From positions 101,319 to 149,656 of the forward strand of contig NZ_AOIB01000037.1 of the NCBI RefSeq assembly GCF_000337675.1: 48,338 nt of DNA. The letters run 5' to 3'. The notes under the pieces were generated by a model. The model saw only the letters and a list, made by a program, of their open reading frames with translations. It did not search any database and was not told the origin of the DNA. The stretch comes from Natronococcus amylolyticus DSM 10524. Its GTDB lineage: Archaea > Halobacteriota > Halobacteria > Halobacteriales > Natrialbaceae. Positions 19,793-43,962 of this stretch are shown here, in pieces. Position numbers and translations under genes: made by a program. Position 1 is the first letter of the stretch; the number at the start of each line of letters is the position of its first letter.

Positions 19793-19801
19793 CCTTTTGC
19801 C
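19793..19801 (+). promoter_or_regulatory. Core promoter box of giant regulator 1
   Basis: CCTTTTGCC lies exactly 21 bases before the ATG at 19823, in the position of a TATA-like box for a leaderless mRNA. The paralogous gene starting at 43962 has the identical nonamer at the identical distance. Confidence 0.5.
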
Positions 19802-19822: not shown

Positions 19823-22800
19823 ATGTCCACGGCTCCACCAGCGCCCGAGGACGTGCTGGAAGCGGTCGACGCTCTCGGCCCACCCAGCACGCCGGTTACG
19901 ACGCCGGAGGTCGCCGAGGGGTTCGACTGTACGCAGCGCACGATCTACAACAGACTCGATTCACTCGTCGACGCCGCCGTCTTGGAAACGAAGAAAGTCG
20001 GGGCCAACAGCCGCGTGTGGTGGCGCCCCATCGACGGTATCATCCAGCAGAACGGCGGTACTTTCGACCACCGTGCTCCAGCCCCGCTCCGAAATGGACG
20101 GACACTCCCGGACAGCGAGATGACTGAGCGCATCCTCGAGTTCGACTGGGCCGAGACGTCGCTCGGTCCGATCGAGGAGTGGCCCCCAGCGTTACGAACG
20201 GCAGTCGATGTCATGCTCGGTGCGAACGAAGCGATCGGCATCTACTGGGGAGACGACCTCCGGTTACTGTACAACGATCTCGCGCGGGACCTCATCGGCG
20301 AAAAACACCCGGAAGCCCTCGGCAAGCCCGGCCGGGACGTCTTCCCGGAGGCCTGGGACACGCTCGGTCCGCTCCACGAGCAGGTACTGGCGGGAGAGGG
20401 TGCGACCCGGCTCGACGAGTTCCTGCTCCCGATCGAACGGACCGGTGAGATCGAGGACGTCTGGTGGGATACGAGTTACAACCCGATTCCACTCGCGGAC
20501 GGCTCGATCGGTGGCGTGTTCAACGTCACGGTCGACGTGACCGAGCGCGTCCAGGCCAAACGGGAGCTCTGCGAATTCAAACGGAAGAGCGAGGCGAGGT
20601 ACCGAACGCTGTTCGAGTCGATCGACGAGGGCTTCTGTATCATCGAGATGCTGTTCGACGAGGACGAACAGCCGGTCGATTACCGGTTCCTCGAGACGAA
20701 TCCGAGGTTCGAAGCGATAACCGATCTGGCGGACGCGGAGGGGAAACGAATGCGGGCTCTGGAGCCAGCCCACGAAAAACACTGGTTCGAGATCTACGGG
20801 ACGGTCGCGAGGACGGGCGAACCCGTGCGATTCATGGAGCAAGCTGAGCACCTTGGCGGCCGGTGGTACGACGTCTACGCGTTCCGAATCGGCGACCCCG
20901 ACGAGCGCCAGGTCGCCATCCTCTTCGAGGACATCACCGAGCGCAAGCAGACCGAGAAGGCACTGCGCGAGAACGAGGCACGGCTCGACGCGTTCGTGGC
21001 GGCGACCTCAGAGGTCGTCTATCGGATGAGTCCCGACTGGTCGGGGATGTACGAACTCGAGGGCAAGGGATTCATCCCCGATACCGAAGAACCCCAGCGC
21101 ACGTGGCTCGACGAGTACATCCCCGACGAGCAAGAGCGCGTTGAGGCTGCGATAACCGAGGCCATCGAGACCAAGAGCACCTTCGAGCTAGAACACCAGG
21201 TCCTGCAGGTAGACGGAACGAGGGGCTGGACGCACTCACGAGCCGTCCCACTCCTGGATGAGGACGGCGACATCATCGAGTGGTTCGGGACGGCCACGGA
21301 CATTACCGAGCGCAAACAACGCCAAAAAGCACTCCGAAAGAGCGAACAGCGCCTCACCGCTGCGACGAACGCCGCGGAGATCGGCATCTGGGAACTCGAC
21401 CTTCAAACTGACGAGGGTCTCTACACGTCGCCACGCTACGCCGAAATCCTGGGATACGACGAGATGCCCGACGACTGGAATCTGGAACGCGCCCTCGAGC
21501 ATTATCATCCGGACGATCGCGAGCGATTGGCAACGTATCTCGAGGAGGGACTCGGCAAGCGGACGTTCGAAGGTCGGATCGTTCGTCCCGATGGCGAACA
21601 GTGCTGGATCTCGGTCGAGAGCACGGTGTACGAAGACGGTGACGGAACGCCGGTACGCGCCGTCGGTACCATACTGGATATCACCGAACGAAAGAAGCGC
21701 GAGCGGAAACAAGCGTATCAGCTCAAAGTGAACGACGCGCTCCGCCCGCTCACCGATCCGGCCGCGATCCAGAAGGAAGCGTGTCGCGTCCTGGGCGAGC
21801 ACCTGGACGTCAAACGGTCACAGTACGGCAAACTCGACCTCGATCGGGAGCTCATCGATATCACCCGGGACTACTACCGCGGCGAAAACGTCGACGAGCT
21901 GCCGAGCCTCGTGGGGGAATACAGCTTCGACGACTTCCCGGCCCACGCGGAGGCGTGGCTCGAACAACGCTCGCTCGTCGTGAACGACGCGGAACGCGAT
22001 GCGGCGTTGAGCGAGGTTAAACGGGCAGGCATGAAGCAACGCGAGGTTCGAGCCACCCTGTCGACGCCACTGGTCAAGAATGGTGTGCCGGTGGTCGTCA
22101 TGGCCGTGACCAGCTCCGTGCCCCGGCAGTGGACGGAGGAAGATATCGCGTTGCTCGAGGAAACGGCCGAGCGCACCTGGGACGCAGTCCAGCGGGCACA
22201 GGCAGAACAGGATCTGCGCGAGTCCGAGGCGCGATTCCGGAACGTGTTCGAGAACGACATGGTTCCGATGGCCCAGTGGATGCAGGATGGCCAAGTCACT
22301 GACGCGAACGAGGCGTTTCTCGATTTGCTCGGGTACACACACGAGGAACTCGAAGCCGGCGAACTCGACTGGGCGGACCGGACACCGGACGAATATCACG
22401 AGCGTGACCGGGCGGCGATCGCGGAAGTCGAGGAACTTGGATCGTGCGAACCGTACGAGAAGGAGTTCATACACAAGGACGGGCATCGAATACCCATCTT
22501 CATCGGCGGCGGGGAGTTCGACCAGCGTTCGGACGAAAATATCCTATTCGCCATCGACATCACCGAGCGCAAGGAGATCGAGGAGGCGCTTCGCGAGAGC
22601 GAGGCACGACTCACTGCCGAACTCGAGGCCATCGAGCGACTGCAGGACGTCAGCACACAGAGTATCGAGGAACACGAGGGTGACGTGCTGTACGGTTCAG
22701 TCCTCGAGACCGCCATGGACCTCCTGGATGCCGGCTTCGGGACGATACAACGACTCGACCCCCAGCCGTACGAACTCGATATGTTATCATACCGCGGATT

Positions 22801-24832
22801 CACGGCGGAGACAATTTCCCGATGGGATCGGGTCGACGTCGAGACGTCGAACAGCTGTGGGAAAGCCCTGCAGACGGAGGAGCGCGTCATTATTCCGGAC
22901 GTCGAGACGTGCGAGTTCATCGAAGCGGGTGACGACCTCGAGGCGTTCACCCGGGTCGGGATCCGATCGATGCAGTCCACGCCGCTGGTCTCTCGAAGCG
23001 GAGAGCTACTCGGCATGCTATCGACGCACTGGACGGACCCGCACGAGCCATCCGAGCGTGACCTCCATCTGCTGGACGTGATTGCCCGGCAGGTTGCCGA
23101 CCTCATGGAGCAGCGGGCGGCCTACGAGACCGTCTCCGAGAGCGAAGCGTCCCTCCAACGGCTCAACGCCGCGACCCAGGAGTTGATCGACGCCGAGCCG
23201 GCGACGATCGCCACCCGTGTCGCGCCGCTCGTGCGCGAGGTTCTCGATGTCGAGTACGCTGCCCTCTGGCAGTACAATACCCAGCGTGGCGACCTCGAAG
23301 CGCGCGCTGCCGACGTCTCTCCGGCTGTGGACGGTGACGCGCTCGAGTCCTCCACTGAGATCGCCGAACAAGCCTGGGAGACGTTCGTCGGGACCGACAT
23401 CGTTGTGGCAAACGACCTCGACGCATCCCCGGACGCGACCTCGATATTGCGAAGCCGCGCGTTCGTCTCGCTGGGTCGCCATGGTGTCGTCTGTCTCGGT
23501 TCGGCGGGGGTCGACACCTTCGACGAGCGAACGATCGACCTCGTGGAAACGGTCGCCTCGACCGTCGAAACCGCGTGGGACCGTGCCGAGAGCGAGGCAC
23601 AACTGGAGCAGCGAAACGAGGAGTTGACCCGACTCGACCGACTCAACTCGCTCATCCGGGAGATCGATACGAGTCTCGTCGAAGCCGAGACCGTCGACGC
23701 GATCGACGACGCGGTCTGTGAGCGCCTGGTTGCATCGCCGCGCTACGAGGTCGCCTGGGTCGGCGAGTTCGACGCCGAGGCAGACGCCGTCCAACCGCGG
23801 TCGTGGGCGGGTACCGAGGCCAGTACCATCGAGGAACTCGCCGCCGGGAGCGACGACCCAGCCATCGCTCCGGACCCCTTCGTGAGCGCGATACGGACCG
23901 GCGAGATGCAAGTCATCGAGGATATCGCCACTGACGCACGAAGCGGATCGTGGCGGGAAGTCGCACTCAAACGCGGGGCACGTTCGTGTTTCAGTATCCC
24001 GCTCACGTACGACAAGTCCGTCTACGGCGTGCTCGTCGTGTACGGCAACTCGCCCGCTCGGAACTTGGATCCCGACGTCCTCGTCGAATTCGGCCGGACG
24101 ATCGCTCACACGATCAACGCCGTCGAAACGAGGGATACGTTCCAGGCCGACAGTATCGTCGAACTCACGCTTCGCTCGACGGAAGCGGACACGCCGCTGT
24201 GTCGCCTGGCACGGGGCATCGACCACGAACTCGAGTTCGAGGGGCTCGTTCCGGGAACCGACGACGCGGCAACGGTCTTCTTCAGCGTGCCGGACGTGGC
24301 GCCCGAGCGGGTGATGGCCGCCGGTGAGGACGTACTCGGAATCGAAGACGTAGTCTCTCTCGCAGAGCACGCCGACAGCTCCCTCTTCAAAGCGCGACTG
24401 AGCGAGTCGGGGCTTGCCGCGCTCGTCCTCGAGCAGAACGCCACGGTCCGGTCGCTTCGGATCGATGCAGGAACCGCCACCGTCGTGGTTGACCTTCCCG
24501 GATCGACGAGCGTCCGTACGTTCGTCGACGCTCTTACGCGGGAGGCACCGGATCTCGAGTTGCTCTCGCGGCGGACTCGAACGCGTGAACCAGGGACGAC
24601 GCTTCAGACCGCCGTCCTCGAGCAGTTGACGCCACGTCAGCAGGAGGTCTTGCAGCTGGCCTATCGGAGCGGGTACTTCGAAATGCCGCGCGTTCGGACG
24701 GGCAAAGAGCTGGCCGACGCGTTGAATATCGTCCCATCGACGTTCGCCAGACACATTCGGAGCGCCGAACGGAACCTGCTCGACGTGCTCTTCGCCAACG
24801 GAAACGAGTCGTCGGAGGAAGGGGCGCAGTAG
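19823..24832 (+). CDS. Giant multi-PAS/GAF regulator with HTH at both ends (1)
   Basis: This 1669-residue soluble protein resembles Bat-type activators. Order: winged HTH (1-67; TPEVAEGFDCTQRTIYNRLD), PAS (about 100-245), PAS (255-372), PAS (380-495), PAS (503-620), GAF (634-785), PAS (795-913), GAF (935-1095), GAF (1110-1255), GAF (1270-1430), Bat-associated domain (1440-1590) and C-terminal HTH_10 (about 1600-1655; LTPRQQEVLQLAYRSGYFE). No histidine kinase or membrane segment is present, so it should be a cytosolic one-component regulator sensing redox, light or small ligands. The ATG is supported by a CCTTTTGCC box 21 bases upstream. It has a 2295-residue paralogue at 37075-43962. Ligands and targets are unknown. 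Confidence 0.88.
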   Translation: MSTAPPAPEDVLEAVDALGPPSTPVTTPEVAEGFDCTQRTIYNRLDSLVDAAVLETKKVGANSRVWWRPIDGIIQQNGGTFDHRAPAPLRNGRTLPDSEMTERILEFDWAETSLGPIEEWPPALRTAVDVMLGANEAIGIYWGDDLRLLYNDLARDLIGEKHPEALGKPGRDVFPEAWDTLGPLHEQVLAGEGATRLDEFLLPIERTGEIEDVWWDTSYNPIPLADGSIGGVFNVTVDVTERVQAKRELCEFKRKSEARYRTLFESIDEGFCIIEMLFDEDEQPVDYRFLETNPRFEAITDLADAEGKRMRALEPAHEKHWFEIYGTVARTGEPVRFMEQAEHLGGRWYDVYAFRIGDPDERQVAILFEDITERKQTEKALRENEARLDAFVAATSEVVYRMSPDWSGMYELEGKGFIPDTEEPQRTWLDEYIPDEQERVEAAITEAIETKSTFELEHQVLQVDGTRGWTHSRAVPLLDEDGDIIEWFGTATDITERKQRQKALRKSEQRLTAATNAAEIGIWELDLQTDEGLYTSPRYAEILGYDEMPDDWNLERALEHYHPDDRERLATYLEEGLGKRTFEGRIVRPDGEQCWISVESTVYEDGDGTPVRAVGTILDITERKKRERKQAYQLKVNDALRPLTDPAAIQKEACRVLGEHLDVKRSQYGKLDLDRELIDITRDYYRGENVDELPSLVGEYSFDDFPAHAEAWLEQRSLVVNDAERDAALSEVKRAGMKQREVRATLSTPLVKNGVPVVVMAVTSSVPRQWTEEDIALLEETAERTWDAVQRAQAEQDLRESEARFRNVFENDMVPMAQWMQDGQVTDANEAFLDLLGYTHEELEAGELDWADRTPDEYHERDRAAIAEVEELGSCEPYEKEFIHKDGHRIPIFIGGGEFDQRSDENILFAIDITERKEIEEALRESEARLTAELEAIERLQDVSTQSIEEHEGDVLYGSVLETAMDLLDAGFGTIQRLDPQPYELDMLSYRGFTAETISRWDRVDVETSNSCGKALQTEERVIIPDVETCEFIEAGDDLEAFTRVGIRSMQSTPLVSRSGELLGMLSTHWTDPHEPSERDLHLLDVIARQVADLMEQRAAYETVSESEASLQRLNAATQELIDAEPATIATRVAPLVREVLDVEYAALWQYNTQRGDLEARAADVSPAVDGDALESSTEIAEQAWETFVGTDIVVANDLDASPDATSILRSRAFVSLGRHGVVCLGSAGVDTFDERTIDLVETVASTVETAWDRAESEAQLEQRNEELTRLDRLNSLIREIDTSLVEAETVDAIDDAVCERLVASPRYEVAWVGEFDAEADAVQPRSWAGTEASTIEELAAGSDDPAIAPDPFVSAIRTGEMQVIEDIATDARSGSWREVALKRGARSCFSIPLTYDKSVYGVLVVYGNSPARNLDPDVLVEFGRTIAHTINAVETRDTFQADSIVELTLRSTEADTPLCRLARGIDHELEFEGLVPGTDDAATVFFSVPDVAPERVMAAGEDVLGIEDVVSLAEHADSSLFKARLSESGLAALVLEQNATVRSLRIDAGTATVVVDLPGSTSVRTFVDALTREAPDLELLSRRTRTREPGTTLQTAVLEQLTPRQQEVLQLAYRSGYFEMPRVRTGKELADALNIVPSTFARHIRSAERNLLDVLFANGNESSEEGAQ

Positions 24833-25172
24833 TTTCATCGTCCTGAAACGCGGCACAAACTCGTTTCCAGTTCAGGATGTCCCACCGTAGCGTCGAACGT
24901 AGCGTCTGGGTGTTCGTCGTGCTGCTCGAGCACAGTTCCCGGAACGATCGCGAGCCACAAATTCCGACGGATTCAACCTCGAATCGAATGAGGCCGAATC
25001 GAGTCTCGGCCGGGTATCGAGGGTCGGCGTGTCGTCCGGACGGTTGCTCGATGGCTCGCCGCGGTATCGGCGGACTCGATCTCCGGGCCGCTCTCGAGAG
25101 GACGCCCCTCGCCGCTGGCCGAAACGTTCGCTGTGGGAGGTGAGCTAAGGTCACCCGAGTCGTACCGTACCC
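24833..25172. other. Gene-free 340-base spacer
   Basis: No gene is convincing; an 88-codon frame at 24877-25143 lacks a recognisable motif and its composition is not that of a haloarchaeal protein. A hairpin with perfect 7-base arms TCCTGAA (24841-24847) and TTCAGGA (24871-24877) follows the giant gene by nine bases and may mark its 3' end. Confidence 0.5.
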
Positions 25173-26378
25173 ATGTTCAGGAGCTTCAGGATCGGCTCGC
25201 TGCTGGGGATCCCGATCAAGCTGGACGTCACCTTCCTGTTGATCCTGCCGGCGTTCGCGTGGCTCATCGCGATCCAGGTCGGCGATCTCGTGCCCGTCCT
25301 CAACGGGCTACTCGGCACGGCGATCGACGGCGAGGCGGTCACGACGGGTGCGACGCCGTGGCTGCTCGGCGCGACCGCCGCGATCGGTCTCTTCGCCAGC
25401 GTCCTGTTGCACGAACTGGGTCACTCGGTCGTCGCGATCCGCTACGGGTTCCCGATCGACTCGATTACGCTCTGGCTGCTCGGCGGCGTCGCACAGCTCT
25501 CCGAGCAGCCGACGAACTGGCGCCAGGAGCTGGCGATCGCGATCGCCGGGCCGATCGTCAGCGTCGGCCTCGGGATCGGGTTCTACGCGCTCGTCCTCGT
25601 CGTTCCGGCGACCCTCGAGACCGCGCAGTTCGTCTTCGCGTATCTGGCGGTGATCAACGTCGTCCTCGCGGCGTTCAACATGCTGCCGGGGTTTCCGATG
25701 GACGGCGGACGGGTCCTCCGGGCGATCCTGGGACGGAATCGCCCGTTCGCCGTCGCGACGGCACAGGCCGCACAGGTCGGAAAGACGTTCGCCCTCCTGC
25801 TGGGGCTGTTCGGCCTGCTCGCGTTCAACATCTTCCTGATCGCGATCGCCTTCTTCATCTACATCGCGGCGACCGGAGAGGCCCGTCAGACCGCGATTCA
25901 GGCCGCCATCGAGGGGATCACTGTCGCGGACGTGATGACACCGGTCGACGAGCTCGACACCGTCTCCCCGGAGACGACGATCGCCGAACTGCTCGACGCG
26001 ATGATGGAGCACCGTCACACGGGGTTTCCGGTCGTCGAGAACGACTCGATCGCCGGCGTCGTCACCCTCGAGGACGTCCGGGCGGTCCCGCCGAGCGAGC
26101 GCGACTCGCGGACGGTTCGAGCGGTGATGGCGACCGACCTCGAGACGCTCTCGCCGACCGAGGAGGCCTGGGAGGCGCTCGTCTCGCTGCAGCGAAACGA
26201 CATCGGCCGTCTCGTCGTTCTCGACGACCGCGAGCGACTCGCGGGGCTGGTTACGCGAACCGACCTGATCACGGCGCTCAACGTCGGCGCGGTTCGCTCG
26301 GCTGGAGGGACGGTTGATCGGCCGTCGGCGGAACGTCCGGACGACGCGCCACAGCCGATCGAAAAACCCCGTTGGTAA
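25173..26378 (+). CDS. Site-2 protease (M50) with CBS pair
   Basis: This 401-residue intramembrane zinc metalloprotease of the S2P/SpoIVFB type has about six membrane segments. The zinc site H80-E-x-x-H84 (LLHELGHSVVAIRYGFP) is in one helix and the third ligand Asp in NMLPGFPMDGGRVLRAILG (about residues 168-186). Two CBS domains (about 245-305 and 310-370; VADVMTPVDELDTVSPE and VRAVMATDLETLSPTEEAW) follow and may sense adenine nucleotides. This architecture is common in haloarchaea. It probably cleaves membrane-bound regulators; no substrate is evident nearby. Confidence 0.93.
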   Translation: MFRSFRIGSLLGIPIKLDVTFLLILPAFAWLIAIQVGDLVPVLNGLLGTAIDGEAVTTGATPWLLGATAAIGLFASVLLHELGHSVVAIRYGFPIDSITLWLLGGVAQLSEQPTNWRQELAIAIAGPIVSVGLGIGFYALVLVVPATLETAQFVFAYLAVINVVLAAFNMLPGFPMDGGRVLRAILGRNRPFAVATAQAAQVGKTFALLLGLFGLLAFNIFLIAIAFFIYIAATGEARQTAIQAAIEGITVADVMTPVDELDTVSPETTIAELLDAMMEHRHTGFPVVENDSIAGVVTLEDVRAVPPSERDSRTVRAVMATDLETLSPTEEAWEALVSLQRNDIGRLVVLDDRERLAGLVTRTDLITALNVGAVRSAGGTVDRPSAERPDDAPQPIEKPRW

Positions 26379-26418
26379 GGGGTGCCGATTCATACCCTGT
26401 CCGCGCGTAGGATCGACT

Positions 26419-26880
26419 ATGTCCCTCGATCGGATTGGGTACGTGTACACGTTCGGGATGGACGAGGCCGAACTCCTCGAGGCCCTCGAGACAACCGACA
26501 CCGGCGTGCTCGCGCTGGCGAGCCAGGGATCGGCCTACGCGATCCCAGTCGGCTGTTACTACGACGACGGGGCGCTGTACGTCCGACTCACCGACGACGG
26601 CGCGAGTACGAAGCTGTCCTATCTCGAGGCGACGACCGAGGCCTGCCTCCTGCTGTACGCCGTCGAACCGCCCGACGGCTCCTGGAGCATCGTCGCACTC
26701 GGGCCGATACGGGAGCTGACCGACCGGGAGAGCGAGGCGTTCGACGAGGCGACGATGATCGAGCGGTTCGGAAAGCCACGGATCTTCGACGAGGATCTGG
26801 ACGCCCTCGAGTGGTCGGTGTACGAACTCGAAATCGCGGAGCTCACCGGTCGCAAGACGGGCGGACGGACCCTTTCGTAG
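26419..26880 (+). CDS. PNPOx-like (FMN split-barrel) protein
   Basis: This 153-residue protein of the pyridoxamine 5'-phosphate oxidase-like split-barrel superfamily has LASQGSAYAIPVGCYYDDGALYVRL and a later GPIRELTDRESEAF segment typical of haloarchaeal members. These bind FMN or F420, but few have a known substrate. The start at 26419 is supported by a CATACCC box about 25 bases upstream; the frame extends further upstream into the protease gene with implausible composition. A second, distant relative lies at 31828. Confidence 0.82.
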   Translation: MSLDRIGYVYTFGMDEAELLEALETTDTGVLALASQGSAYAIPVGCYYDDGALYVRLTDDGASTKLSYLEATTEACLLLYAVEPPDGSWSIVALGPIRELTDRESEAFDEATMIERFGKPRIFDEDLDALEWSVYELEIAELTGRKTGGRTLS

Positions 26881-27012
26881 TTCGGTCCCGTCGGGAAACG
26901 CGCTGCTCGGCGACGACTCGCACGCGACAGGACCGGTGACTACCGATCGCTCGCGACTATCATCGCCGTCGTGAACGGAGTTTACTACACCCTTCGGTGT
27001 AGCGACGATCCG

Positions 27013-27492
27013 ATGACTGAGACCGCACGGAGGGACCTGTTACGACTCGCGGGCGCGTCGACCGTCGCGTTCCTCGCGGGCTGTGGAAACGACGGCGAGG
27101 AGGAGCCGACCGATGATGAGAACGCAGAACCGGAGGAGGAGACGGCCGACGAGGACTGGGGGGACGTCGACGAGTTCGCCTTCGAGGGACGGGTCGAGGC
27201 CTGGACCGGGCTCGAGCCGGAGTTCATCGGCGGCGAGGACAACCCGACGATCACCCTCGTCGAGGGCCAGGAGTACGACTTCAGGTGGGTCAACGCCGAC
27301 GGGATCCTCCACAACCTGGAGATTCGAGACGAGGACGGCGAGATCGTCGACGACTACCAGAGCGACGACGTCGAAGAGGAGGGCGAGGAGACGACACTCG
27401 AGGGCGTCACTGCAACCGAGGAGATGACGACGTACATCTGTGCGTACCACGAATCGACGCAGGTCGGCGACATCGAGATCGAAACGGAGTAG
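27013..27492 (+). CDS. Tat lipoprotein cupredoxin with Gln in place of axial Met
   Basis: This 159-residue protein starts with a twin-arginine signal (ARRDLLRLAG) and a lipobox LAGC (Cys24), so it is exported folded and lipid-anchored outside the membrane. A low-complexity acidic linker (residues 25-52) leads to a cupredoxin domain with copper ligands H100 (GILHNLEI), C143 and H146 (YICAYHESTQVG). The position of the usual axial Met is Gln150, as in stellacyanin, which would lower the redox potential. It probably carries electrons like halocyanin. ATG 27013 is chosen because it gives the Tat signal directly. Confidence 0.85.
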   Translation: MTETARRDLLRLAGASTVAFLAGCGNDGEEEPTDDENAEPEEETADEDWGDVDEFAFEGRVEAWTGLEPEFIGGEDNPTITLVEGQEYDFRWVNADGILHNLEIRDEDGEIVDDYQSDDVEEEGEETTLEGVTATEEMTTYICAYHESTQVGDIEIETE

Positions 27493-27624
27493 CCGACGTC
27501 GCCTCGAGCCGATCGACGGCGGTCTCGAGGGGGACCGAAACTTGACTTCCCGTTCCCGCCCGATGAGAACCTATAGTGACTGTTATCACCTAGCATCCCG
27601 TTTCCCTAGACGAGGTGAGCACCG

Positions 27625-27897
27625 ATGGCCGACTATTACGACGAACTCCTCGGCAGCATCGTCGTCTGTCTGGTGGGCGGCGTACTGGTCGGTCTGCTCA
27701 CCCCGATCGCGTTCCATTTTGGAGTGTTGTTCGGGGCGCTGACCGCGATGGCGTTCGTCTGCGACGCGCTCTTCGTCCACCCGCCGCTTTCCGAGACCGA
27801 TCCGCGCCGACGACCAGCCGATCAGCCGATCGGTAGCCAACGGGACGATACCGTTCGGTTACCGGTTCGAGCAATCGATCCGGATATCCGTCGCTAA
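27625..27897 (+). CDS. Small two-helix membrane protein
   Basis: This 90-residue protein has two membrane segments (about residues 10-30 and 33-50: LLGSIVVCLVGGVLVGLLTP, then HFGVLFGALTAMAFVCDALF) and a 38-residue charged tail. A GAGGTGAG element lies just before the ATG and could serve as ribosome binding site, so this gene may have a leader. No family is recognised with certainty; similar small hypothetical membrane proteins are common in haloarchaea. Confidence 0.65.
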   Translation: MADYYDELLGSIVVCLVGGVLVGLLTPIAFHFGVLFGALTAMAFVCDALFVHPPLSETDPRRRPADQPIGSQRDDTVRLPVRAIDPDIRR

Positions 27898-28015
27898 CCG
27901 CGGCGACTAACCGGAATCCGATAGGCGATCCTTACACACATATGTATGTAACATATCCCATACTGAATTGACCGATTACCGACTGGTTGCGTCGGATTTC
28001 GTCGTACGTTCACCC

Positions 28016-29383: not shown

Positions 29384-29491
29384 GACTGCGGGTACTGACG
29401 CGGCCGCGAAGCAAATAGTCCGGGGCGGAACGCCCGTCGCTCGCTCGGCAACCTTTCTTGTGGGTCGATCGCGTACCCTGCGACGATCCAG

Positions 29492-30361: not shown

Positions 30362-30403
30362 CGCGGTGGGTGTTTCAAGACGCTGGTCGTGGTACCGCGA
30401 CCC

Positions 30404-31716: not shown

Positions 31717-31827
31717 ACCCGTCACACCACCGCACGGGTATTAATGCTCGAGGGCGCGTTCTCGTTGCCAATACAGTCACCATTTCCGGAGCGAGGTGTT
31801 TTGCGGCCTCGAGCCGTTCGTCGGAGT

Positions 31828-32283: not shown

Positions 32284-32322
32284 CTGTCCGGGCTGGAACG
32301 AACCGAAGCGAACCGCTCGCCG

Positions 32323-32754: not shown

Positions 32755-32940
32755 CGTCGCATCTACACCGAAAAGACATATAATGGTAATTCGTCAGCGG
32801 AAGAGAATCTCGACATCGAACACGTAGGGACAGGCGAACGAAGCGCTTTCCGGCCCCGACTCGGGGAACCGTCGTCGGACGTTTCGCGTCGCCGAGAACG
32901 ATCACGGAACGCTTTATATCCGGATCGCATTGCCCCCCGC

Positions 32941-33378: not shown

Positions 33379-33391
33379 GTCACTCGTGACG

Positions 33392-34276: not shown

Positions 34277-34363
34277 TCGACGATCGGCGACTCGTTCCGT
34301 GGTCGGGTTTGGGATCCTGAGGACAGGAGATACAATTATACGGATCGTCGGAATACCTCCGAT

Positions 34364-34804
34364 ATGAGCGATCGTATTCTCGTCCCGTACGACGGCTCCG
34401 AGCCCGCGGACTACGCTCTCGAGTTCGCCTTCGAGACGTTCGCCGACGCCGACGTCACCGCGCTCCACGTCATCCAGATCCCGGAGGGGTACTGGGGCGC
34501 CTTCGAGGGTCCCGACATCAGTCCGCCCGTCACCGAGAAGGCCCGCGAGTACGCCGAGGAGCTCCTTGAGCCCGCACGGGAACTCGCGGCCGACCGCGAT
34601 CGGGATCTCGAGACCGAGATTCTCTCCGGAAAGCCCGACGATCAAATCGTCGCCTACGCGGAGGAGGAGGGGTACGACGCCATCGTCGTGGGCAGTCACG
34701 GCCGCGAGGGGATCTCGAGAGTGCTGCTCGGCAGCGTTGCAGAGAACGTCGTCCGTCGGTCACCGACCCCCGTCGTCGTCGCTCGCGACCCCGACGTCAA
34801 GTGA
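34364..34804 (+). CDS. Universal stress protein (UspA domain)
   Basis: This 146-residue single-domain USP has MSDRILVPYDGSEPADYALE at the N terminus and a complete ATP loop GSHGREGISRVLLGS. A CAATTATAC box about 28 bases before the ATG supports a leaderless start. Its stop lies three bases from the stop of the convergent class V aminotransferase, so the two transcripts must overlap. Confidence 0.93.
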   Translation: MSDRILVPYDGSEPADYALEFAFETFADADVTALHVIQIPEGYWGAFEGPDISPPVTEKAREYAEELLEPARELAADRDRDLETEILSGKPDDQIVAYAEEEGYDAIVVGSHGREGISRVLLGSVAENVVRRSPTPVVVARDPDVK

Positions 34805-34807
34805 GCG

Positions 34808-35914
34808 CTACAGCGTCTCGAGCAGTTTGTCGATCTCGTCTCGCGTGTTGAACGCGTGAACCGAGATCCGAATCGCGTCGGGGTACGGCAGCGAGCGGAC
34901 GACGATATCCTCGCTGGCGAGCCGTTCGACGGTCGCCTCGGGGTCGTCGACGTCGACGGTGACTAGTCCCGACTCGAACGATCGCGGGCTCAGCAGGCGC
35001 TCGTCGGAGAGCCCGTCCTTGAGGCGATCGGTCAGCGTCTCGATGCGCGACTCGATGGCGTCGGCGCCGAGTTCCTGATGGAGGTCGATGGCCTGCCGGA
35101 GTCCGGCGTCGGTCGCGGGACTCGTCGTCCCGACCTCGAATCGGCCAGCGCCGGGCGCGTACTCGTAGTCGGGTGCGTTCGGGTCGACGACGCTGCGGTA
35201 GCCGATCGCGCTCGGCGCGTAGTCGGCTTCGACGCCCTCCCGAACGTAGAGGAAGCCGGCGCCGAAGGGACCCAGCAGCCACTTGTGGCCCGCACCGACG
35301 ACGAAGTCGGCGCCCCACTCGCTGACGTCGACGGGGGTCTGGCCGGGCGACTGGACGGCGTCGAGCAACACCGCGGCACCGGCGTCGTGGGCGATGTCGA
35401 CCAGTTCGCGGACCGGGAGCCGGGTGCCGTGGGTCCAGGTGATCGAGCTGAACTCGAACAGCGTCGCGCCCTCGAGGGCGGTCTTGACGTCGTCGAGGTC
35501 GACCCGTCCGTTCTCGGTCTCGAGGACGTGCACCTCGACGCCGTACTCGCGCTCGAGGCGGCGCCAGGGGAGGATTCCCGCGGCGTGCTCGAGGTCCGTG
35601 CGGACGACGACGTCGTCGGCGTCCCAGTCGAGGGCGCCGGCGACGCGGTTGATCCCATCCGTTGTGCTCTGAGTGAGCGCGACCTCGGCCTCGCTCGCCC
35701 CCAGCAGGTCGGCGACCGCGGGCTTTGTCTCGTCGTGGCTCTCGCCCGCGGCGACGTACATCCCCTCCTCGACGGGCGCCTCGTACTCGTGAGACTGGAG
35801 TGCCGACTCGGCGGCCTCGACGACCCGCCGCGGGCTGGGGCCGCCCGCGCCCGTGTTGAAGTAGCTGGCGCGCTCGAGGGCCGGAATTTCGTCCCTGAGC
35901 CGTTCGTAATCCAT
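34808..35914 (-). CDS. Class V aminotransferase (cysteine desulfurase-like)
   Basis: This 368-residue PLP enzyme of the class V aminotransferase/cysteine desulfurase-like fold has YFNTGAGGPSPRRVVEA at the N terminus, LTQSTTDGINRV, LDAVQSPGQTPVDV (PLP-binding Asp and Gln region), and GAGHKWLLGPFGAGFLYV with the Schiff-base Lys. A mobile active-site Cys typical of SufS is not obvious, so isopenicillin N epimerase-like or other transaminase function is as likely. ATG 35914 is chosen because the family begins there; a GAACGCTTAGG stretch about 28 bases upstream could be its promoter. Confidence 0.88.
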   Translation of the reverse strand: MDYERLRDEIPALERASYFNTGAGGPSPRRVVEAAESALQSHEYEAPVEEGMYVAAGESHDETKPAVADLLGASEAEVALTQSTTDGINRVAGALDWDADDVVVRTDLEHAAGILPWRRLEREYGVEVHVLETENGRVDLDDVKTALEGATLFEFSSITWTHGTRLPVRELVDIAHDAGAAVLLDAVQSPGQTPVDVSEWGADFVVGAGHKWLLGPFGAGFLYVREGVEADYAPSAIGYRSVVDPNAPDYEYAPGAGRFEVGTTSPATDAGLRQAIDLHQELGADAIESRIETLTDRLKDGLSDERLLSPRSFESGLVTVDVDDPEATVERLASEDIVVRSLPYPDAIRISVHAFNTRDEIDKLLETL

Positions 35915-36231
35915 ATGCCGAATCGTCGGGTCGACGGCTCCTAAGCGTTCGGCTCGGCGGCCGAGCGAGAGAGATGAGGGGGTCTCGCGGCTCGCCCTCG
36001 AGTGACCGTGGATAGCGGTAGCCGGTAGTGCGATTTCGTTGTTCAGCTCGGGCCGTAATCCGAATCGCCGGTCCGTCAGGTAGCGAGTGCGAACGGAGCG
36101 CTGGTACATCGATTAGCTACCGATGGTGTTGAGACAGTCCCGCTGCAGAGACAGCGCTCACTCATCAGTTTAGCAATACAGAGTACGGTGCGCAAAAGTA
36201 CAATCCTGCACCCGCCGGTAGCTCACTTCAG
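35915..36231. other. Gene-free 317-base spacer
   Basis: The region separates the aminotransferase start from the end of a DUF7344-type gene. It has mixed composition, turning AT-richer towards 36180. I see no gene, RNA or clear repeat in it. Confidence 0.5.
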
Positions 36232-36570
36232 TCACAGCCAGTCGTCGGGAAGTTCGTTAGCATGGTTCTCCATCAGCTCCAGCAGCGGCCGGATCTCGTC
36301 GAATCGAGGGCCCGTTCGAATCGTATTGGTATCTCGGTCCCATTCGATCAATTCTGCCTTCTCCAGCTTTGGAAGGTGCGTGTGTGTCATGTGGATCCTG
36401 AGCGTCTCTAGATCCTCGTCTGTGAAGGTGAGGGCCGCAGGGATCTGTGGGTCGTCGTCTTGTGGATTGTGCTCTAGCAACGCGACGAGCAGACGCCGAC
36501 GATACCTGTTCGACAGAATGTCCAGGGTTGCATCCAGCGATACCGAGTGCTTCGGGCCGTCGGCAGTCAT
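36232..36570 (-). CDS. DUF7344-type winged-helix regulator
   Basis: This 112-residue protein resembles the DUF7344 HTH family, which is abundant in haloarchaea. Helix 1 is VSLDATLDILSNRYRRRLLVALLEH; the recognition segment is LRIHMTHTHLPKLEKAELIEWDRDTNTI. The start at 36570 overlaps the stop of the upstream gene by four bases (ATGA), so the two are translationally coupled. Likely a DNA-binding transcriptional regulator with a short C-terminal dimerisation helix (IRPLLELMENHANEL). Targets unknown. The longer frame to 36828 is out of the family and overlaps the upstream gene. Confidence 0.82.
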   Translation of the reverse strand: MTADGPKHSVSLDATLDILSNRYRRRLLVALLEHNPQDDDPQIPAALTFTDEDLETLRIHMTHTHLPKLEKAELIEWDRDTNTIRTGPRFDEIRPLLELMENHANELPDDWL

Positions 36571-36962
36571 GGTCCGGTATCCTCGTCGTTTCGTTCCGCA
36601 CTTTTTACGACGCCGTCGGTCGCGGGTAGTGCCTGCTCTTCGGCGATGCGTGTCGCGAGCCGTTCGACCGGGAGCTCCTCGTCTTGCTGGAGGAGGTGAG
36701 ACAGGATGCGACGGTTGGTCCGGTGACGCAACACACTGAGCGCTTCGGGGAGATTGGTTGGCTCGGGCGCGCCAGGAGACGAGACCGCCGATTCGTATTC
36801 GTCCGAACCGTCCTCTTCGCTGTTCCACGCGTTCGTACCTTCCGTCGGGCGGATAGCGACGAAAAGTCGGCTGCGGAATATTGCGACGTTCCCGATGTGG
36901 CGTCGAATCATTTCGATACTCGCGGAGAACGATCGCTCGTTCTCTTCCGCCGTCGCGTCCAT
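36567..36962 (-). CDS. Half DUF7344-like HTH protein, coupled to the next gene
   Basis: This protein of about 131 residues has a C-terminal half (about residues 70-131) that matches only the first part of a DUF7344 domain: LPEALSVLRHRTNRRILSHL and LPVERLATRIAEEQALPATDG. It then ends without the HLPKL recognition segment that its partner has. The N-terminal part is acidic and shows no known motif. The stop overlaps the start of the full domain gene. It may be a truncated paralogue acting as a partner or antagonist, or a decaying copy. The N terminus is uncertain (ATG 36962 or TTG 36965, or an internal ATG near 36911). Confidence 0.6.
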   Translation of the reverse strand: MDATAEENERSFSASIEMIRRHIGNVAIFRSRLFVAIRPTEGTNAWNSEEDGSDEYESAVSSPGAPEPTNLPEALSVLRHRTNRRILSHLLQQDEELPVERLATRIAEEQALPATDGVVKSAERNDEDTGP

Positions 36963-37074
36963 CAACCTCGAGTTCGCCGTCTACCGACGGGTGAGACGAA
37001 ATTACAGGTGATCGGGATAGTATGACTCAATCGAAATACTGAGACGCGTGGTAGTCGAAACGCGCCGACGCGAC

Positions 37075-40000
37075 TCAGACGCTATCGAACACCGCTTCGA
37101 AGACGCGACGTTCTGCAGCCCTGAGATGATGGTTGAACGTCGACTGGGAGAGGTCCAGCGCCTCGGAGAGGTCTTGGCCCGTCTGCACGCGGGGTGACTC
37201 GAAGTATCCGCTCCGGTAGGCCAGTTGAAGGGTTTCCCGCTGACGAGGCGTCAGGCGGTCCTCGAACGCCGTCTGGAGCTGCTGTGCTATGTCGGGCGAC
37301 GGTTGCCGTGATCGACGAGCGAGGAGATCGAGGTCGGGAAGATCCTGCTTAAATTCCTCGATGAACCCGCGGACGTCCGTCGATCCCGGCGCCGCTACGA
37401 CGGCGGTCGCCGTTCCCGCATCCATGGTCAGCGACCTGATCGACGCGCCCGCTTCGAGGAATCCTGCGGCGAGCGATTCGTCGGTTACCTGTGCCTTGAA
37501 TCGATGCCCCTCATCGCGTTCGACCAGCGGTATCAGTTCCTCGAATGCGAGTGACCGCTCGGCGGCGGCGGCCACCTCGTCGGGGTCGACGTCTTGCGCG
37601 GTGAAGAAGATGGTCGTCTCACCGTCTGCGCCCGGCACCAGGCCCTCGAACTCGAGCACGCAGTCCAGCGCCTGTGCGAGGCGAACGAGTGGGGTGTCAG
37701 CCGTCGTGGTCTGGAGGGTGAGTTCGACGACGCTCTCCGTCCGGGACGTCCGTCTGGTCTCGACGGCGTGTATCGCGTGGCCGACCGTTCGTCCGAGTTC
37801 CGAGAGGACGTCGAGGTCACGCTCGTCGGGTTGTGGCTGTCCTCCGTAGACGACGACAACCCCGTAGACGGAGTCGTCGTATGCGAGCGGGATGGCGAGA
37901 CACGAGCGCGCCCCGAGGCCGAGCGCGGCCTCGCGCCACGGGGCCGCCCGCGCGTCCGTAGCGATGTCGGCGACGACCTGCATCTCGCCGCTCCGCACCG
38001 CGGCGGCGAACGGGCTCGTCTGCGAAGGTGACCCGTTGGGTGCGACGGTGAGGTCTTCTACCGAGACGCTGTCGACACCCGCCCACGCTCGCGGGAGTAC
38101 GTCGTCGGCATCCGCATCGTACTCGCCGAGCCACGCAAACTCGTAGAGCGCCGAGTCGGCGAGGCGCCCACAGACCATCTCGTCGATCCTCTCGACGGTC
38201 TCGGCGTCGACGAGTCCCTGGTCGGTCCGCCGGATGAGGATATTCAGCCGGTCGAGACGGGTCAGTTCTTCGTTGCGCTGTTCCAGTGCTCGCTCACTCT
38301 CGGCGCGGTCCCACGCGGTCTCGACGGTCGAGGCGACCATCTCGAGGAGATCGAGGCGCCACTCGTCGAACGCCTCTGCGTGACCGGAGCCAACGAAGAC
38401 GACGCCGTGGCGACCCAGCGGAACGAACGCTCGACTCCCCAGTCGGGACGGCCACGATCCGTCGTCGGCGATGTCGATCGCGACGTCGACGTCGATTTCG
38501 TCGCCGATGAACGTCTCCCAGACGCGCTCGTGGGATACTTCCGAGGGACCAATCCCATCGAGGTCCGTCTCGGATTCTGCGTGTTCGGACACCACGTCGA
38601 GCGTGCCAGTCTGCTCGTCGTACTGCCAGAGCGCCGCGTACTCGACGTCGAGGACGTCGACGGTGAGTTCGGCCATGCGGTCGATGATCGCCTCCGGGTC
38701 GGCATCTATCAGCTTGCGGCCCACGTCGTTGAGTCGCTCGAGCGACTCGTTGGACGTTTTCAGCGCCTGTTCGGCGCGGGCGCGCTCCACCGCCGTCCAG
38801 GTGCGGTCTGCTGTTTCTTCGACCAGCGAGAGTTCGAACTCCGTCCAGTCGTGCGGGTCGCTGTACACCGCGTACAACGCCAAGTCGACGTTCTCCCCCC
38901 GAATCGGCGCACCGATCCAGGCACCGAAATCGAGCTCGAGGAGCGCCTGCCGTTCCGCCTCGTGGAGCGACGAATCGTTCGCAACGTCGTCGTAGACGGG
39001 CGTTTCAGTCTGGATCTGCTGGACCGCGTCCGGGAAGGACGAAAACGGATACAGTCCACTCACCGGCTCGAGGCCGTCGCTGTGATACTCCGGCCCGACC
39101 AGTGCCTCTTCCGCCTCGGAATCGAACCGCACGAGATAGGCTCTGTCGAGCCCCATCTCCTCGGCGAGCAGCTCCGTACACACCTCTCCGACCGCCTCTT
39201 CGTCTGTGAGGGTGCGTATCTCGTCGTTGAGGTCGAGCATGAACTGATCGCGTCGCTCTCGTTGCTTGCGCTCGGTGACGTCATCGAATACAAGTGCTAC
39301 ACGGTCGTGGTGAGTATCGATCTGCGAGACGAAAACGTTGTACCATCGCTGCGTCGGCTCGTGATAGCGCTCGAAACGAGTTGCGACGCCAGTCCGAGCC
39401 ACCTCTCCGTATTTCTCGAACCAGTTCCGGTCGGTTTCGAGGCCCAGATCGGCGTGAGTCTTTCCGACCGCATCGTCCAGACCGGTCTGGCGCTCGAAAG
39501 CGTCATTGTGCTCGAGATACCGCATATCGACCGGACGATCGTTTTCGTCGCGAACTATCTCCACGACGCAAAAGCCCTCGTCGATCGATTCGAACAGGGT
39601 GCGGTACTTTTCCTCGCTCTCGCGCAGCGCTTGTTCGGCCTGTGCCCGCTGGACTGCGTTCCAGGTACGATCCGCCGTTTCTTCGAGCAACGCGATATCT
39701 TCCTCCGTCCACTTCCGGGGCACAGAACTGGTCACCGCCATGACCACCATCGGCTCGTTGTTCTTGACCAGCGGCGTCGACAGCGTGGCGCGAACCTCGC
39801 GTTGGTGCATGCCGGCGCGTTCACTCTCGCTCAACGCGGGATCGCGTTCCGCGTCGTTTACCGCGAGCGAGCGACGGTCGAGCCACGCCTCTGCGTGAGC
39901 CGGAAAGTCGTCGAAGTCGAATTCCCCCACGAGACTTGGGAGCTCGTTGACGTCTTGTCCGCCCCGATAGTAGTCTCGCGTGATATCGATGAGCTCTCGG

Positions 40001-43000
40001 TCGAGATCGAGTTTGCCGTACTGCGCCCGTTTGACGTCGAGGTGTTCGCCTAGAACGCGACACGCCTCCTCCTGAATTGCAGCCGGATCGGTGAGCGGGC
40101 GGAGCGCGTCGTTCAGTTCGAGCAGATAGGCCTGACGCTCCTCGGCCTGCTTGTGTTCGGTGATCTCCATCGTTACCCCGACATGACCCTGATAGCCACC
40201 GTCGGTACCGAAGAGCGGTTGGGCGTGGTTGTCGAACCAGCGCCACTCGCCGTCATGGCGTCGGAGGCGGTTTTGGTTGGACCACGCCCGCTGCTCGGCA
40301 ACTGCCGCCTGATAGTCGGCCACATACGCGTCCCGTTCGTCCGGGTGCACGAGCGTGTGCCACCCCTCGCCGCGAATCGCTTCCTCGCTCATGCCGGTGA
40401 AATCCAGAAACTCTTGATTAACGAATTGATTTTCGCCGTGCTCGTCATTTTGCCAGATCAGTGCCGGCGCGGTCTCGGCCAGGGTGCGAAACTTTTTCTC
40501 GCTCTCGCGGATTTTCTCCTCGGTCCTGGCCCGTTCGACGGCCTGCCATGTCCTCTCGGCGGCGTCCTCCAGTAATATCCGCTCGCTGTCGGTCCATTGG
40601 CGTGGCGTAGCCGTGGTGCCCGTGAGCGCCCAGATGACGTCGCGTTCTCCCTCCCGTAGCGGAACGGACAGCAGGGCGACGATGTTCAGCCCGGCCAGCA
40701 ACTCGTTCTCCGAATCCGAAAAGCGCGGGTCGTCAGCCACGTTCGCGATCTGAATCGTCTGCGTAGCGAGCTGTCGCATCACCTCCGGGTAGTTCGAAAG
40801 TTGGAATATACCGGACATCGGCTGCAGGTCCGAGCGAATCTGCTCCGGGCCGACTCGAGCAACTCCCTCCTCCTCGGATACCTTGCTGATGTAACAGCGG
40901 TCAAGATCCAGCTGCTCGGCGATCATCTCGACGGCCTGGTCTTTGATCGACTCGGCATCGGGTTGCGCCCGCAGCGCATCGCTGAACTGGAGCAGGAAAT
41001 CTTGCCGTTCCTCGCGCTGCTTCTGCTCGGTGATGTCGGAGAAAAGAACTGCCACCGTCCGTTCTTCTGGCTCTCCGATGCGGAACGCGAAGACGTCGAA
41101 CCATCGGCCGTCCAGGTACCTGGCCTGGTCCGTGAATCGCTCGGGTTCGCCCGTCTGCGCGATACGTCCGTACTTTTCGAACCGTTGTTCGTCGTGTTCG
41201 TCGTAGTCGGGCTCGAGGTCCCGCATTCGTTCGCCCTCCACATCGACGTAGCCGGTTATCTCCTCGAACGCCGAATTCGTCTCGAGGAATTGGAAATCGA
41301 CAGCCTCGTCGTCTTCGTCGAAGATGACGTTCATGGTCATGAACCCCTCGTCGATCGACTCGAACAGCATCCGGTGCTTCTCCTCGCTCTCGCGCAACGC
41401 TTGTTCCGCCTGTGCCCGCTGGACTGCGTTCCAGGTGCGGTCTGCCGTCTCTTCGACCATCTCGATCTCGGCGTCGGTCCACTCACGAGGCGTCGATCCG
41501 TTGACGACAACGTATGCTGTGCATTGACCCCCTTTGAGTATCGGCGCGATCAGCAACGATCGAATGTCGTATTTCAGATATGAGGTGCGTTGTTCCTCGG
41601 TGAACTGTGAATCGGTCCGCAGGTCGTCTACCACCACTGACTCACCTGCTTGGAGCGACTCGAGGAGGTGCTGGCCGAAGTCGTCGAGGTGGTGCTCACC
41701 GAGAGCGGCCGGAGTGTCGCCGTGGAGGTATTCGCTGTGAACGATCACCCGGCCATCCTCGGAGAGAACTTCGCAATAGTTTGCTCGCGCGACGTTCAAT
41801 TGCTCGCCAAGAACGCGGGCTGCCTCCTGCTGAACCGCGACGGGATCGGTGAGTGAGCGAATCGCGTCGGCAAGGTCGATGCGGAAGGCATCCAGTTCGG
41901 CTTGTTGCTGGAGTTTTCGCTCAGCCTCTTTACGCTTGGTGATGTCTGTGGCCGTCCCGAACCACTCGGTGATCTCGCCGTCGTCGGAACGCACCGGCAC
42001 CGCCCGTGAGTGGATCCAGCCACGGCTTCCGTCCACTCGTCGGACCTGGTGTTCGAGGTCGAACTGGCTCTCCGTTTCGATGGCCTCCTCGACGGCCGCC
42101 ATCACTCGTTCTTTCTCCTCCGGTGGGGTGTACTCCTCCAGCCATCGCTCCCGCGGCTCATCCGTATCGACGATGAAACCCTTGCCATCCAGGTGGTACA
42201 GTTCCGACCAGTCTGGACTCTGGCGGTAGACGACCTCCGAGGTCGCAGTCACGAACGAATCCAGTCGCTCCTGGCTCTCGCGAAGCGCGTCTACAGTCTG
42301 CTGGCGCTCGATGAGATCGGCAGCCTGCCGTGCCAGGATATCCAGATGCGCCAATTCACGCTCGGACGGCTCGGTTGGCGTCTCCCAGTGCGTCGAGAAC
42401 ATCCCGAGCACCTCCCCGCTCCGTGAGACGAGCGGCGTCGTCTGCATCGACCGAATCCCGGTCTGGCGGTAGTTCTCCAGCTCCTCCGCCTCCGCGATGT
42501 CGTTGTCCGTCTCGACGTCAGACAGGATGACGCGCTCGCCGGTCCGGAACGCCTCACCACACGTGGTTCCGTGCTCGGGGGTGACCCTGTTCCACGCCGA
42601 TTCTGCCTCCTCGGAGAATCCGCGGTTCGCGACGAGCTCGAGATCGTTCCGGTCGGGGTCGTAGAGTTGCACGCTTGCGAAGTCGGCGTCCACGAGTTCG
42701 AGCGCGGAGTCGAGCACGCGTTCGGACAGCGCCGCGACGTCGTCCTCGCCGATCAGTTCGGTGCTGAACTCTCCTAGCCTGCGCGTCGCCTCCAGTTCGG
42801 CTGCGAGTTTGCTCTCGCTCTCACGCAGTGCGGTTTCCTGCCGCTTTCGCTCGGTGATATCGTCAAAGAGAATACCAACCTCGTTGCTGTCTCCGTCACC
42901 GACGGGGAACGCGAAGACGTCGAACCACTTCCCCCAGGCGTCGACGTGCTCTTCGAATCGCATCGACTCGCCGGTGCGGGCGACCTCTCCGTAGCGCTCG

Positions 43001-43962
43001 TACCAGTACCCCTCGAGCGCTGCCCCCATCTCGTTGATTGTCCGTCCCTCGGCGTCCGTCAGTCCTGTGAACGTCTCGTTGGCTTCGACGATACGATAGT
43101 CGACCGGGTCGTCCCCGTCGAAAATTACGTCGACGATACAGAACCCCTCGGTGATCGATTCGAAGAGCTGTCGGTAGCGCTGTCTGGTCTCTTGCTCGCG
43201 TTTCCGGAGTTTCCGCTCGGCCTGCAAGCGCTCGGTGACGTCGAACGAGATATTGAAGACCCCACCGACCGAGCCGTCTTCGCCGGGAATCGGGTTGAAC
43301 GTCGAATCCCACCAGACGTCTTCTATCGTCCCATCGCGCTCTATCGGGAGGTACTGAGCTTCCCTTTGAACGGGTCCCTCGCCCGCCATCACCTGCTCGT
43401 GGAACGACCCGAATTCGTCCCAGGCTTCCGGAAACACGTCCCGGGCGGGTTGGCCGAGTGCATCGGGGTGTTTCTCGCCGATCCGCTCGACTGCCGCGTC
43501 GTTGTACAGTAACCGGAGGTCGTCTCCCCAGTAGATGCCGATCGCCTCGTTCGCACCGAGCATGATGTCGACGGCGACCCGTAGCTGCGGCGGCCAGTCG
43601 ACTATCGGACCGACGGGCGTCTCGCCCCAGTCGAACTCCCGGATGCGTTCGGCCATCTCTCCCCTCGAATGGAAAAGCGACGACTGCTCGGCGTGCTGTG
43701 ATCGTGGATTCGTGGTCGAGCCGCCGTTCTCGGTCACTCGGCGGTCGTCACGGACGGGTTTCCACCACACGCGGCTGTTGGCACCGACCTTCTTCGTCTC
43801 GATGGCACCCGCTTCGACGAGCGCGTCGAGTCGGTTGTAGACCGTTCGGTCGGAACAGTCGAACTCCGCGGCGATCTCCGGCGTCGTGAAGGGAGTCCCG
43901 GGCGGGCCGAGGTGGTCAAACATCCGCCGGACGGTGTCCGCGGATGGTGTGGACGGGGCCAT
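37075..43962 (-). CDS. Giant multi-PAS/GAF regulator with HTH at both ends (2)
   Basis: This 2295-residue soluble protein is a paralogue of the product at 19823-24832. Approximate order: HTH (1-70), PAS (103-245), PAS (257-375), GAF (391-550), PAS (561-680), GAF (694-850), PAS (857-975), GAF (986-1150), PAS (1157-1275), GAF (1284-1440), PAS (1450-1565), GAF (1574-1730), GAF (1742-1895), GAF (1905-2080), Bat-associated domain (2085-2230) and HTH_10 (2236-2292; LTPRQRETLQLAYRSGYFE). No kinase or membrane segment was found. The GAF at 1284-1440 is nearly identical to the GAF at 634-785 of the shorter paralogue. The ATG has the same CCTTTTGCC box at the same distance. It looks like a one-component regulator with an enlarged sensory array; ligands unknown. 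Confidence 0.88.
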   Translation of the reverse strand: MAPSTPSADTVRRMFDHLGPPGTPFTTPEIAAEFDCSDRTVYNRLDALVEAGAIETKKVGANSRVWWKPVRDDRRVTENGGSTTNPRSQHAEQSSLFHSRGEMAERIREFDWGETPVGPIVDWPPQLRVAVDIMLGANEAIGIYWGDDLRLLYNDAAVERIGEKHPDALGQPARDVFPEAWDEFGSFHEQVMAGEGPVQREAQYLPIERDGTIEDVWWDSTFNPIPGEDGSVGGVFNISFDVTERLQAERKLRKREQETRQRYRQLFESITEGFCIVDVIFDGDDPVDYRIVEANETFTGLTDAEGRTINEMGAALEGYWYERYGEVARTGESMRFEEHVDAWGKWFDVFAFPVGDGDSNEVGILFDDITERKRQETALRESESKLAAELEATRRLGEFSTELIGEDDVAALSERVLDSALELVDADFASVQLYDPDRNDLELVANRGFSEEAESAWNRVTPEHGTTCGEAFRTGERVILSDVETDNDIAEAEELENYRQTGIRSMQTTPLVSRSGEVLGMFSTHWETPTEPSERELAHLDILARQAADLIERQQTVDALRESQERLDSFVTATSEVVYRQSPDWSELYHLDGKGFIVDTDEPRERWLEEYTPPEEKERVMAAVEEAIETESQFDLEHQVRRVDGSRGWIHSRAVPVRSDDGEITEWFGTATDITKRKEAERKLQQQAELDAFRIDLADAIRSLTDPVAVQQEAARVLGEQLNVARANYCEVLSEDGRVIVHSEYLHGDTPAALGEHHLDDFGQHLLESLQAGESVVVDDLRTDSQFTEEQRTSYLKYDIRSLLIAPILKGGQCTAYVVVNGSTPREWTDAEIEMVEETADRTWNAVQRAQAEQALRESEEKHRMLFESIDEGFMTMNVIFDEDDEAVDFQFLETNSAFEEITGYVDVEGERMRDLEPDYDEHDEQRFEKYGRIAQTGEPERFTDQARYLDGRWFDVFAFRIGEPEERTVAVLFSDITEQKQREERQDFLLQFSDALRAQPDAESIKDQAVEMIAEQLDLDRCYISKVSEEEGVARVGPEQIRSDLQPMSGIFQLSNYPEVMRQLATQTIQIANVADDPRFSDSENELLAGLNIVALLSVPLREGERDVIWALTGTTATPRQWTDSERILLEDAAERTWQAVERARTEEKIRESEKKFRTLAETAPALIWQNDEHGENQFVNQEFLDFTGMSEEAIRGEGWHTLVHPDERDAYVADYQAAVAEQRAWSNQNRLRRHDGEWRWFDNHAQPLFGTDGGYQGHVGVTMEITEHKQAEERQAYLLELNDALRPLTDPAAIQEEACRVLGEHLDVKRAQYGKLDLDRELIDITRDYYRGGQDVNELPSLVGEFDFDDFPAHAEAWLDRRSLAVNDAERDPALSESERAGMHQREVRATLSTPLVKNNEPMVVMAVTSSVPRKWTEEDIALLEETADRTWNAVQRAQAEQALRESEEKYRTLFESIDEGFCVVEIVRDENDRPVDMRYLEHNDAFERQTGLDDAVGKTHADLGLETDRNWFEKYGEVARTGVATRFERYHEPTQRWYNVFVSQIDTHHDRVALVFDDVTERKQRERRDQFMLDLNDEIRTLTDEEAVGEVCTELLAEEMGLDRAYLVRFDSEAEEALVGPEYHSDGLEPVSGLYPFSSFPDAVQQIQTETPVYDDVANDSSLHEAERQALLELDFGAWIGAPIRGENVDLALYAVYSDPHDWTEFELSLVEETADRTWTAVERARAEQALKTSNESLERLNDVGRKLIDADPEAIIDRMAELTVDVLDVEYAALWQYDEQTGTLDVVSEHAESETDLDGIGPSEVSHERVWETFIGDEIDVDVAIDIADDGSWPSRLGSRAFVPLGRHGVVFVGSGHAEAFDEWRLDLLEMVASTVETAWDRAESERALEQRNEELTRLDRLNILIRRTDQGLVDAETVERIDEMVCGRLADSALYEFAWLGEYDADADDVLPRAWAGVDSVSVEDLTVAPNGSPSQTSPFAAAVRSGEMQVVADIATDARAAPWREAALGLGARSCLAIPLAYDDSVYGVVVVYGGQPQPDERDLDVLSELGRTVGHAIHAVETRRTSRTESVVELTLQTTTADTPLVRLAQALDCVLEFEGLVPGADGETTIFFTAQDVDPDEVAAAAERSLAFEELIPLVERDEGHRFKAQVTDESLAAGFLEAGASIRSLTMDAGTATAVVAAPGSTDVRGFIEEFKQDLPDLDLLARRSRQPSPDIAQQLQTAFEDRLTPRQRETLQLAYRSGYFESPRVQTGQDLSEALDLSQSTFNHHLRAAERRVFEAVFDSV

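Follow-up and report, generated by a model that had tools for sequence, protein, structure and literature searches.

The two giant paralogues P0001 and P0002 of Natronococcus amylolyticus DSM 10524 are probably Bat-type one-component regulators with many inputs, in which the N-terminal receiver has been replaced by a winged helix-turn-helix domain (N-wHTH) that acts as a second, portable DNA-contact module. Both genes lie in a window of 48,338 nucleotides, the whole stretch of DNA that was analysed. Family scans, structure models and charge all speak for the two predicted DNA-binding ends of each protein.

Layout and predicted folds of P0001 and P0002

An earlier note on this DNA had described two giant paralogues of 1669 and 2295 residues, with 9 or 13 PAS/GAF modules followed by a BAT domain and HTH_10 at the C terminus, and this description holds. 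Both ORFs are intact and free of frameshifts, which rules out a frameshifted gene or pseudogene. Their features are as follows.

19823..24832, + strand: P0001, 1669 aa, N-wHTH, 5 PAS, 4 GAF, BAT and HTH_10 (ORF, Pfam/NCBIfam)
19823..20032, + strand: P0001 N-terminal winged HTH, residues 1-70 (HTH_20 26.3 bits; alignment of 79; family fold)
20120..24142, + strand: P0001 PAS/GAF sensor array, about residues 100-1440 (Pfam/NCBIfam)
24149..24598, + strand: P0001 BAT domain, residues 1443-1592 (Pfam)
24626..24781, + strand: P0001 HTH_10, residues 1602-1653 (Pfam)
37075..43962, - strand: P0002, 2295 aa, N-wHTH, 6 PAS, 7 GAF, BAT and HTH_10 (ORF, Pfam/NCBIfam)
43753..43962, - strand: P0002 N-terminal winged HTH, residues 1-70 (HTH_20 41.7 bits; AlphaFold)
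37753..43653, - strand: P0002 PAS/GAF sensor array, about residues 104-2070 (Pfam/NCBIfam)
37273..37737, - strand: P0002 BAT domain, residues 2076-2230 (Pfam; structure model)
37096..37254, - strand: P0002 HTH_10, residues 2237-2289, sigma-region-4-like fold (Pfam; structure model)

Both C-terminal domains score far above their Pfam cutoffs: BAT (PF15915) reaches 132.8 bits in P0001 and 129.7 bits in P0002 (cutoff 25.8), and HTH_10 (PF04967) reaches 65.7 and 68.1 bits (cutoff 23.1). At the N end, HTH_20 (PF12840) scores 41.7 bits in P0002 and 26.3 in P0001, the latter just under the Pfam cutoff of 27. The modules between were recovered as five PAS S-box and four separate GAF_2 stretches in P0001, and as six and seven in P0002 (GAF_2 by Pfam). 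Response_reg has no Pfam match at E <= 0.01 in either protein, the N end being occupied by HTH_20; a very diverged receiver may be present elsewhere in them. No membrane span is indicated in either (maximum 19-residue hydropathy about 1.3-1.4), and a motif search found the LOV flavin-binding Cys motif (NCR / NxRFLQ) absent from both. Most parts common to the two genes share 67-76% DNA identity, and one GAF-module block (window positions 21675-22229, + strand, versus 39612-40169, - strand) is 84% identical over 558 bases, which suggests recent duplication or gene conversion of single modules between the paralogues. The neighbouring genes (an ABC transporter, an M50-CBS protease, universal stress proteins, an ABC1 kinase, nicotinate phosphoribosyltransferase and an aminotransferase) suggest no clear regulon.

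Structure prediction gives the N end a winged helix and the C end an HTH like that of sigma region 4, in agreement with the HTH proposed for each end by the earlier note. In an alignment of 79 N-terminal segments, P0001 among them, 76 of the 79 match HTH_20 at E <= 0.01. The AlphaFold model of the N-domain has three helices (residues 8-18, 27-34 and 38-50) and a two-stranded wing (55-59 and 63-67). Its matches in the PDB are winged helices, the top ones nearly all nucleic-acid-binding; the structural search returned 3f22_B (Z 10.7, 1.6 A over 62 residues), 3r0a_A (Z 10.1, 4.2 A over 75 residues) and 6cmv_D (Z 9.9, 2.2 A over 69 residues). Conserved in the alignment are Arg39 of the recognition helix and the basic wing residues Lys57, Lys58 and Arg64, the conservation of the wing being partly due to a search seed that lies in it (VGxxxRVWW). 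The fold and family score liken the N-domain to the ArsR-like winged helices of HTH_20. Those proteins are small dimeric repressors, whereas the N-domain here is joined to a histidine kinase, or to a cytosolic sensor array together with a second HTH.

Z-alpha chains (3f22_B) head the structural list, yet ordinary winged helices are tied with them, and Z-DNA binding by the N-domain was rejected. The Z-alpha triad is Asn173-Tyr177-Trp195; mapped by hand from the aligned ranges, it falls on Tyr42, Asp46 and Trp66, so that only the Trp agrees and two of the three positions mismatch.

For P0002, the last 226 residues were modelled with confidence (pLDDT 90.8). In this model the BAT domain consists of two beta-alpha-beta-beta-alpha-beta repeats, a tandem ferredoxin/ACT-like unit, and most resembles Ta1207 of Thermoplasma (5m86_A, Z 11.0, 2.9 A over 140 residues), a likeness that may hint at ligand binding or oligomerisation. 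The HTH_10 model matches region 4 of sigmaE on -35 DNA (SigE; 2h27_D, Z 9.5, 2.4 A over 68 residues). The fold is common to both, but region 4 belongs to a bacterial sigma factor and the HTH_10 domain to a regulator from archaea, whose transcription relies on TBP and TFB and not on sigma factors. Across 64 dual-ended proteins the mean net charge per residue is -0.015 for the N-wHTH and -0.010 for HTH_10, versus -0.107 for the sensors and -0.085 for BAT. Near-neutral ends around an acidic middle are consistent with what would be expected of the nucleic-acid-binding parts of a haloarchaeal protein. Fold and charge stop short of proof of DNA binding by the N-domain or HTH_10, and binding by each end is a prediction.

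Distribution of the layout and exchange of outputs

The N. amylolyticus genome holds 55 HTH_10 matches, 54 of them above the Pfam cutoff. A search for the N-terminal HTH together with HTH_10 found the combination to be widespread, with five dual-ended proteins in the own genome: P0001, P0002 and frames of 1387, 1097 and 781 aa. In named haloarchaeal genomes, 62 of the 80 best N-domain loci encode N-wHTH, BAT and HTH_10 in one ORF (433-2107 aa) and six encode the N-wHTH with a kinase and without BAT or HTH_10; these loci were chosen with the seed in the wing, and 62/80 is thus a biased figure and not a true frequency. None of the 62 is as long as P0002 (2295 aa). An N-domain match at E <= 1e-5 occurs in 166 of 195 genomes of Halobacteriales, about 110 of which reach 1e-15 (counted by hand from the table). 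A phylum-wide sample gave only weak matches outside Halobacteriales, most of them to short ORFs. Judged by these searches, the layout of P0001 and P0002 is ordinary for the group and not peculiar to the pair.

Some loci depart from this pattern. Dual-ended proteins of three other haloarchaeal loci (L064, L078 and L122) are seemingly split by frameshifts, the BAT-HTH_10 half lying in another frame. Related winged HTHs occur at L114, L116 and L125 at the head of short proteins, which measure about 170-195 aa counted from the HTH; these share a C-terminal segment ending in WHxxGG and form a separate small haloarchaeal family.

The N-wHTH is, on sequence grounds, a portable module that is joined either to BAT/HTH_10 or to histidine-kinase outputs, because the first 370 residues of a kinase-ended protein are 67% identical to P0002. 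This protein, from the same genus (L174, G196:C1:1574000-1586000), matches residues 4-373 of P0002, a stretch comprising the N-wHTH and the first two PAS modules, and ends in a histidine kinase. On a tree of the N-domain, at least three changes of label are required to account for the kinase and BAT outputs, with few branches well supported; the starred branches alone are compatible with a single origin. One HTH_10 gene lies near the N-wHTH kinase of the own genome and none near the other seven such kinases, which is no enrichment. Exchange of a portable, DNA-tethering winged HTH between Bat-type and histidine-kinase outputs, giving rise to dual-ended regulators and DNA-bound kinases, is a tentative proposal that we regard as possible but somewhat doubtful.

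Two further proteins belong beside these. A sixth N-wHTH of the own genome (L043, about 1380-3393) heads a PAS/histidine-kinase frame that seems to be interrupted by a frameshift within a PAS module; the gene may be a pseudogene, or the assembly may be wrong here. On a plasmid of Natrinema gelatinilyticum (L057:8001-14321), a single ORF of 2107 aa runs from an N-terminal winged HTH (HTH_20 score 24.9, under the cutoff of 27) through PAS/GAF, HisKA-HATPase, a receiver and more PAS/GAF to BAT and HTH_10, so that one polypeptide combines a kinase with a Bat-type response regulator.

The upstream nonamer

P0001 and P0002 carry an identical nonamer 21 bases before the ATG, as the earlier note had observed.

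19793..19801, + strand: CCTTTTGCC, core-promoter element (TATA-box position), separated from the P0001 ATG by 21 bases
43984..43992, - strand: CCTTTTGCC, core-promoter element, separated from the P0002 ATG by 21 bases

This spacing suggests that both transcripts are leaderless. The same note had suggested from the nonamer that the two genes may be co-regulated, and two facts might seem to speak for co-regulation by a common factor: element and 21-base spacing are identical at the two genes, and only 10 copies exist in the 4.4 Mb genome. However, an ATG follows 7 of the 10 at a distance of 21-22 bases, and in five of the seven cases it belongs to an unrelated gene (the five start with MGEQYTILVALSNP..., MEVAEVLPEFADAF..., MDADDFDHDAHM..., MPTPTERVRRAER... 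and MDTHEAFAILADTDR...). A 9-base word common to the two 150-base upstream regions arose in 51 of 500 shuffles, and at roughly this position the T-rich elements of other family paralogues differ from it. On the copies before unrelated genes and the shuffle result, a specific operator was rejected. Elsewhere in haloarchaeal DNA (1.2 Mb scanned), seven TTTTGCC words are linked to an ATG, and six of them likewise lie 21-22 bases ahead of it. CCTTTTGCC is best read as a generic core-promoter element for leaderless starts; equal spacing is therefore expected and is uninformative on co-regulation. The promoters of P0001 and P0002 would be two among CTTTTGCC promoters, and co-regulation through the nonamer is very improbable.

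Proposed mechanism and relation to known regulators

We propose that P0001 and P0002 are soluble one-component transcription regulators in which the PAS/GAF array would read signals and pass them to the BAT domain, and BAT would in turn alter the action of the sigma-region-4-like HTH_10 at target promoters. The N-wHTH would provide a second DNA contact that helps to choose or hold the site, in a local double contact. What the analysis shows is that the genes are intact, which domains and predicted folds they encode, that both ends are close to neutral, that the layout is widely conserved and that outputs have been exchanged; DNA binding by each end, the direction of signalling and any target genes are inferred.

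The most likely role of the N-wHTH is that of a second, portable DNA-contact module that places the protein at its sites. A domain of this fold might instead head the sensor array as a dimerisation or signalling domain, leaving HTH_10 as the only part to contact DNA. Winged helices often serve as dimerisation modules and also take part in protein contacts, and the module is also present on histidine kinases, proteins that can work without binding DNA. Against this, the charge of the N-wHTH is near-neutral like that of HTH_10 and unlike that of the acidic sensors, most of its nearest PDB neighbours are nucleic-acid-binding, and Arg39, Lys57, Lys58 and Arg64 are conserved (in the wing partly via the search seed). 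We consider a non-binding N-wHTH unlikely. Less likely still is DNA looping or bridging, in which each end would hold its own site and the giant sensor array would be the long spacer between these distant sites. The two predicted DNA-binding ends would suit such a role, as would an array that is up to about 2000 residues long, but spacer length is not conserved: dual-ended relatives can be as short as 433 aa, with one PAS, or as long as 2295 aa. Looping is not favoured because dual-ended members with one sensor module exist, and we favour the local double contact over it. We know of no paired operators for dual-ended regulators. Neither looping nor two regulons per protein, the suggestions of the earlier note, gains specific support, given that the ends are set apart by anything from one sensor module to 13 within the family and that the histidine kinases with the N-domain are without a second HTH.

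The combination of BAT and HTH_10 outputs with PAS/GAF sensors is that of the already known Bat family. Bat (bacterioopsin activator of transcription) and the Bat-type response regulators of haloarchaea have the order REC-PAS-GAF-BAT-HTH_10 (PMC5847659; PMC3184054). P0001 and P0002 resemble them in their PAS/GAF sensors and in the BAT and HTH_10 that come after these at the C end, and differ in carrying a winged HTH where the response regulators have their receiver and in the much larger number of sensor modules (9 and 13). HVO_1357 of Haloferax volcanii, which is linked to motility, is REC-HalX-GAF-BAT-HTH_10 (PMC7824242). It shares the BAT and HTH_10 output pair, whereas its N end has a receiver and HalX, with no N-terminal winged HTH reported, and P0001 and P0002 have the winged HTH. 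The literature searched, of partial coverage, gave no description of Bat-like proteins with a winged HTH at the N terminus. The dual-ended layout thus seems, provisionally, to be both common across haloarchaea and undescribed.

Haloarchaea can encode dozens of HTH_10 proteins, few of which have known targets; 27 HTH_10 genes have been reported for Natrialba magadii (PMC3403918). If a large conserved subset of these proteins, together with kinases, carries a second DNA-binding end, the one-HTH picture of Bat regulators would be incomplete. DNA-bound histidine kinases, if they exist, would signal from a fixed chromosomal place.
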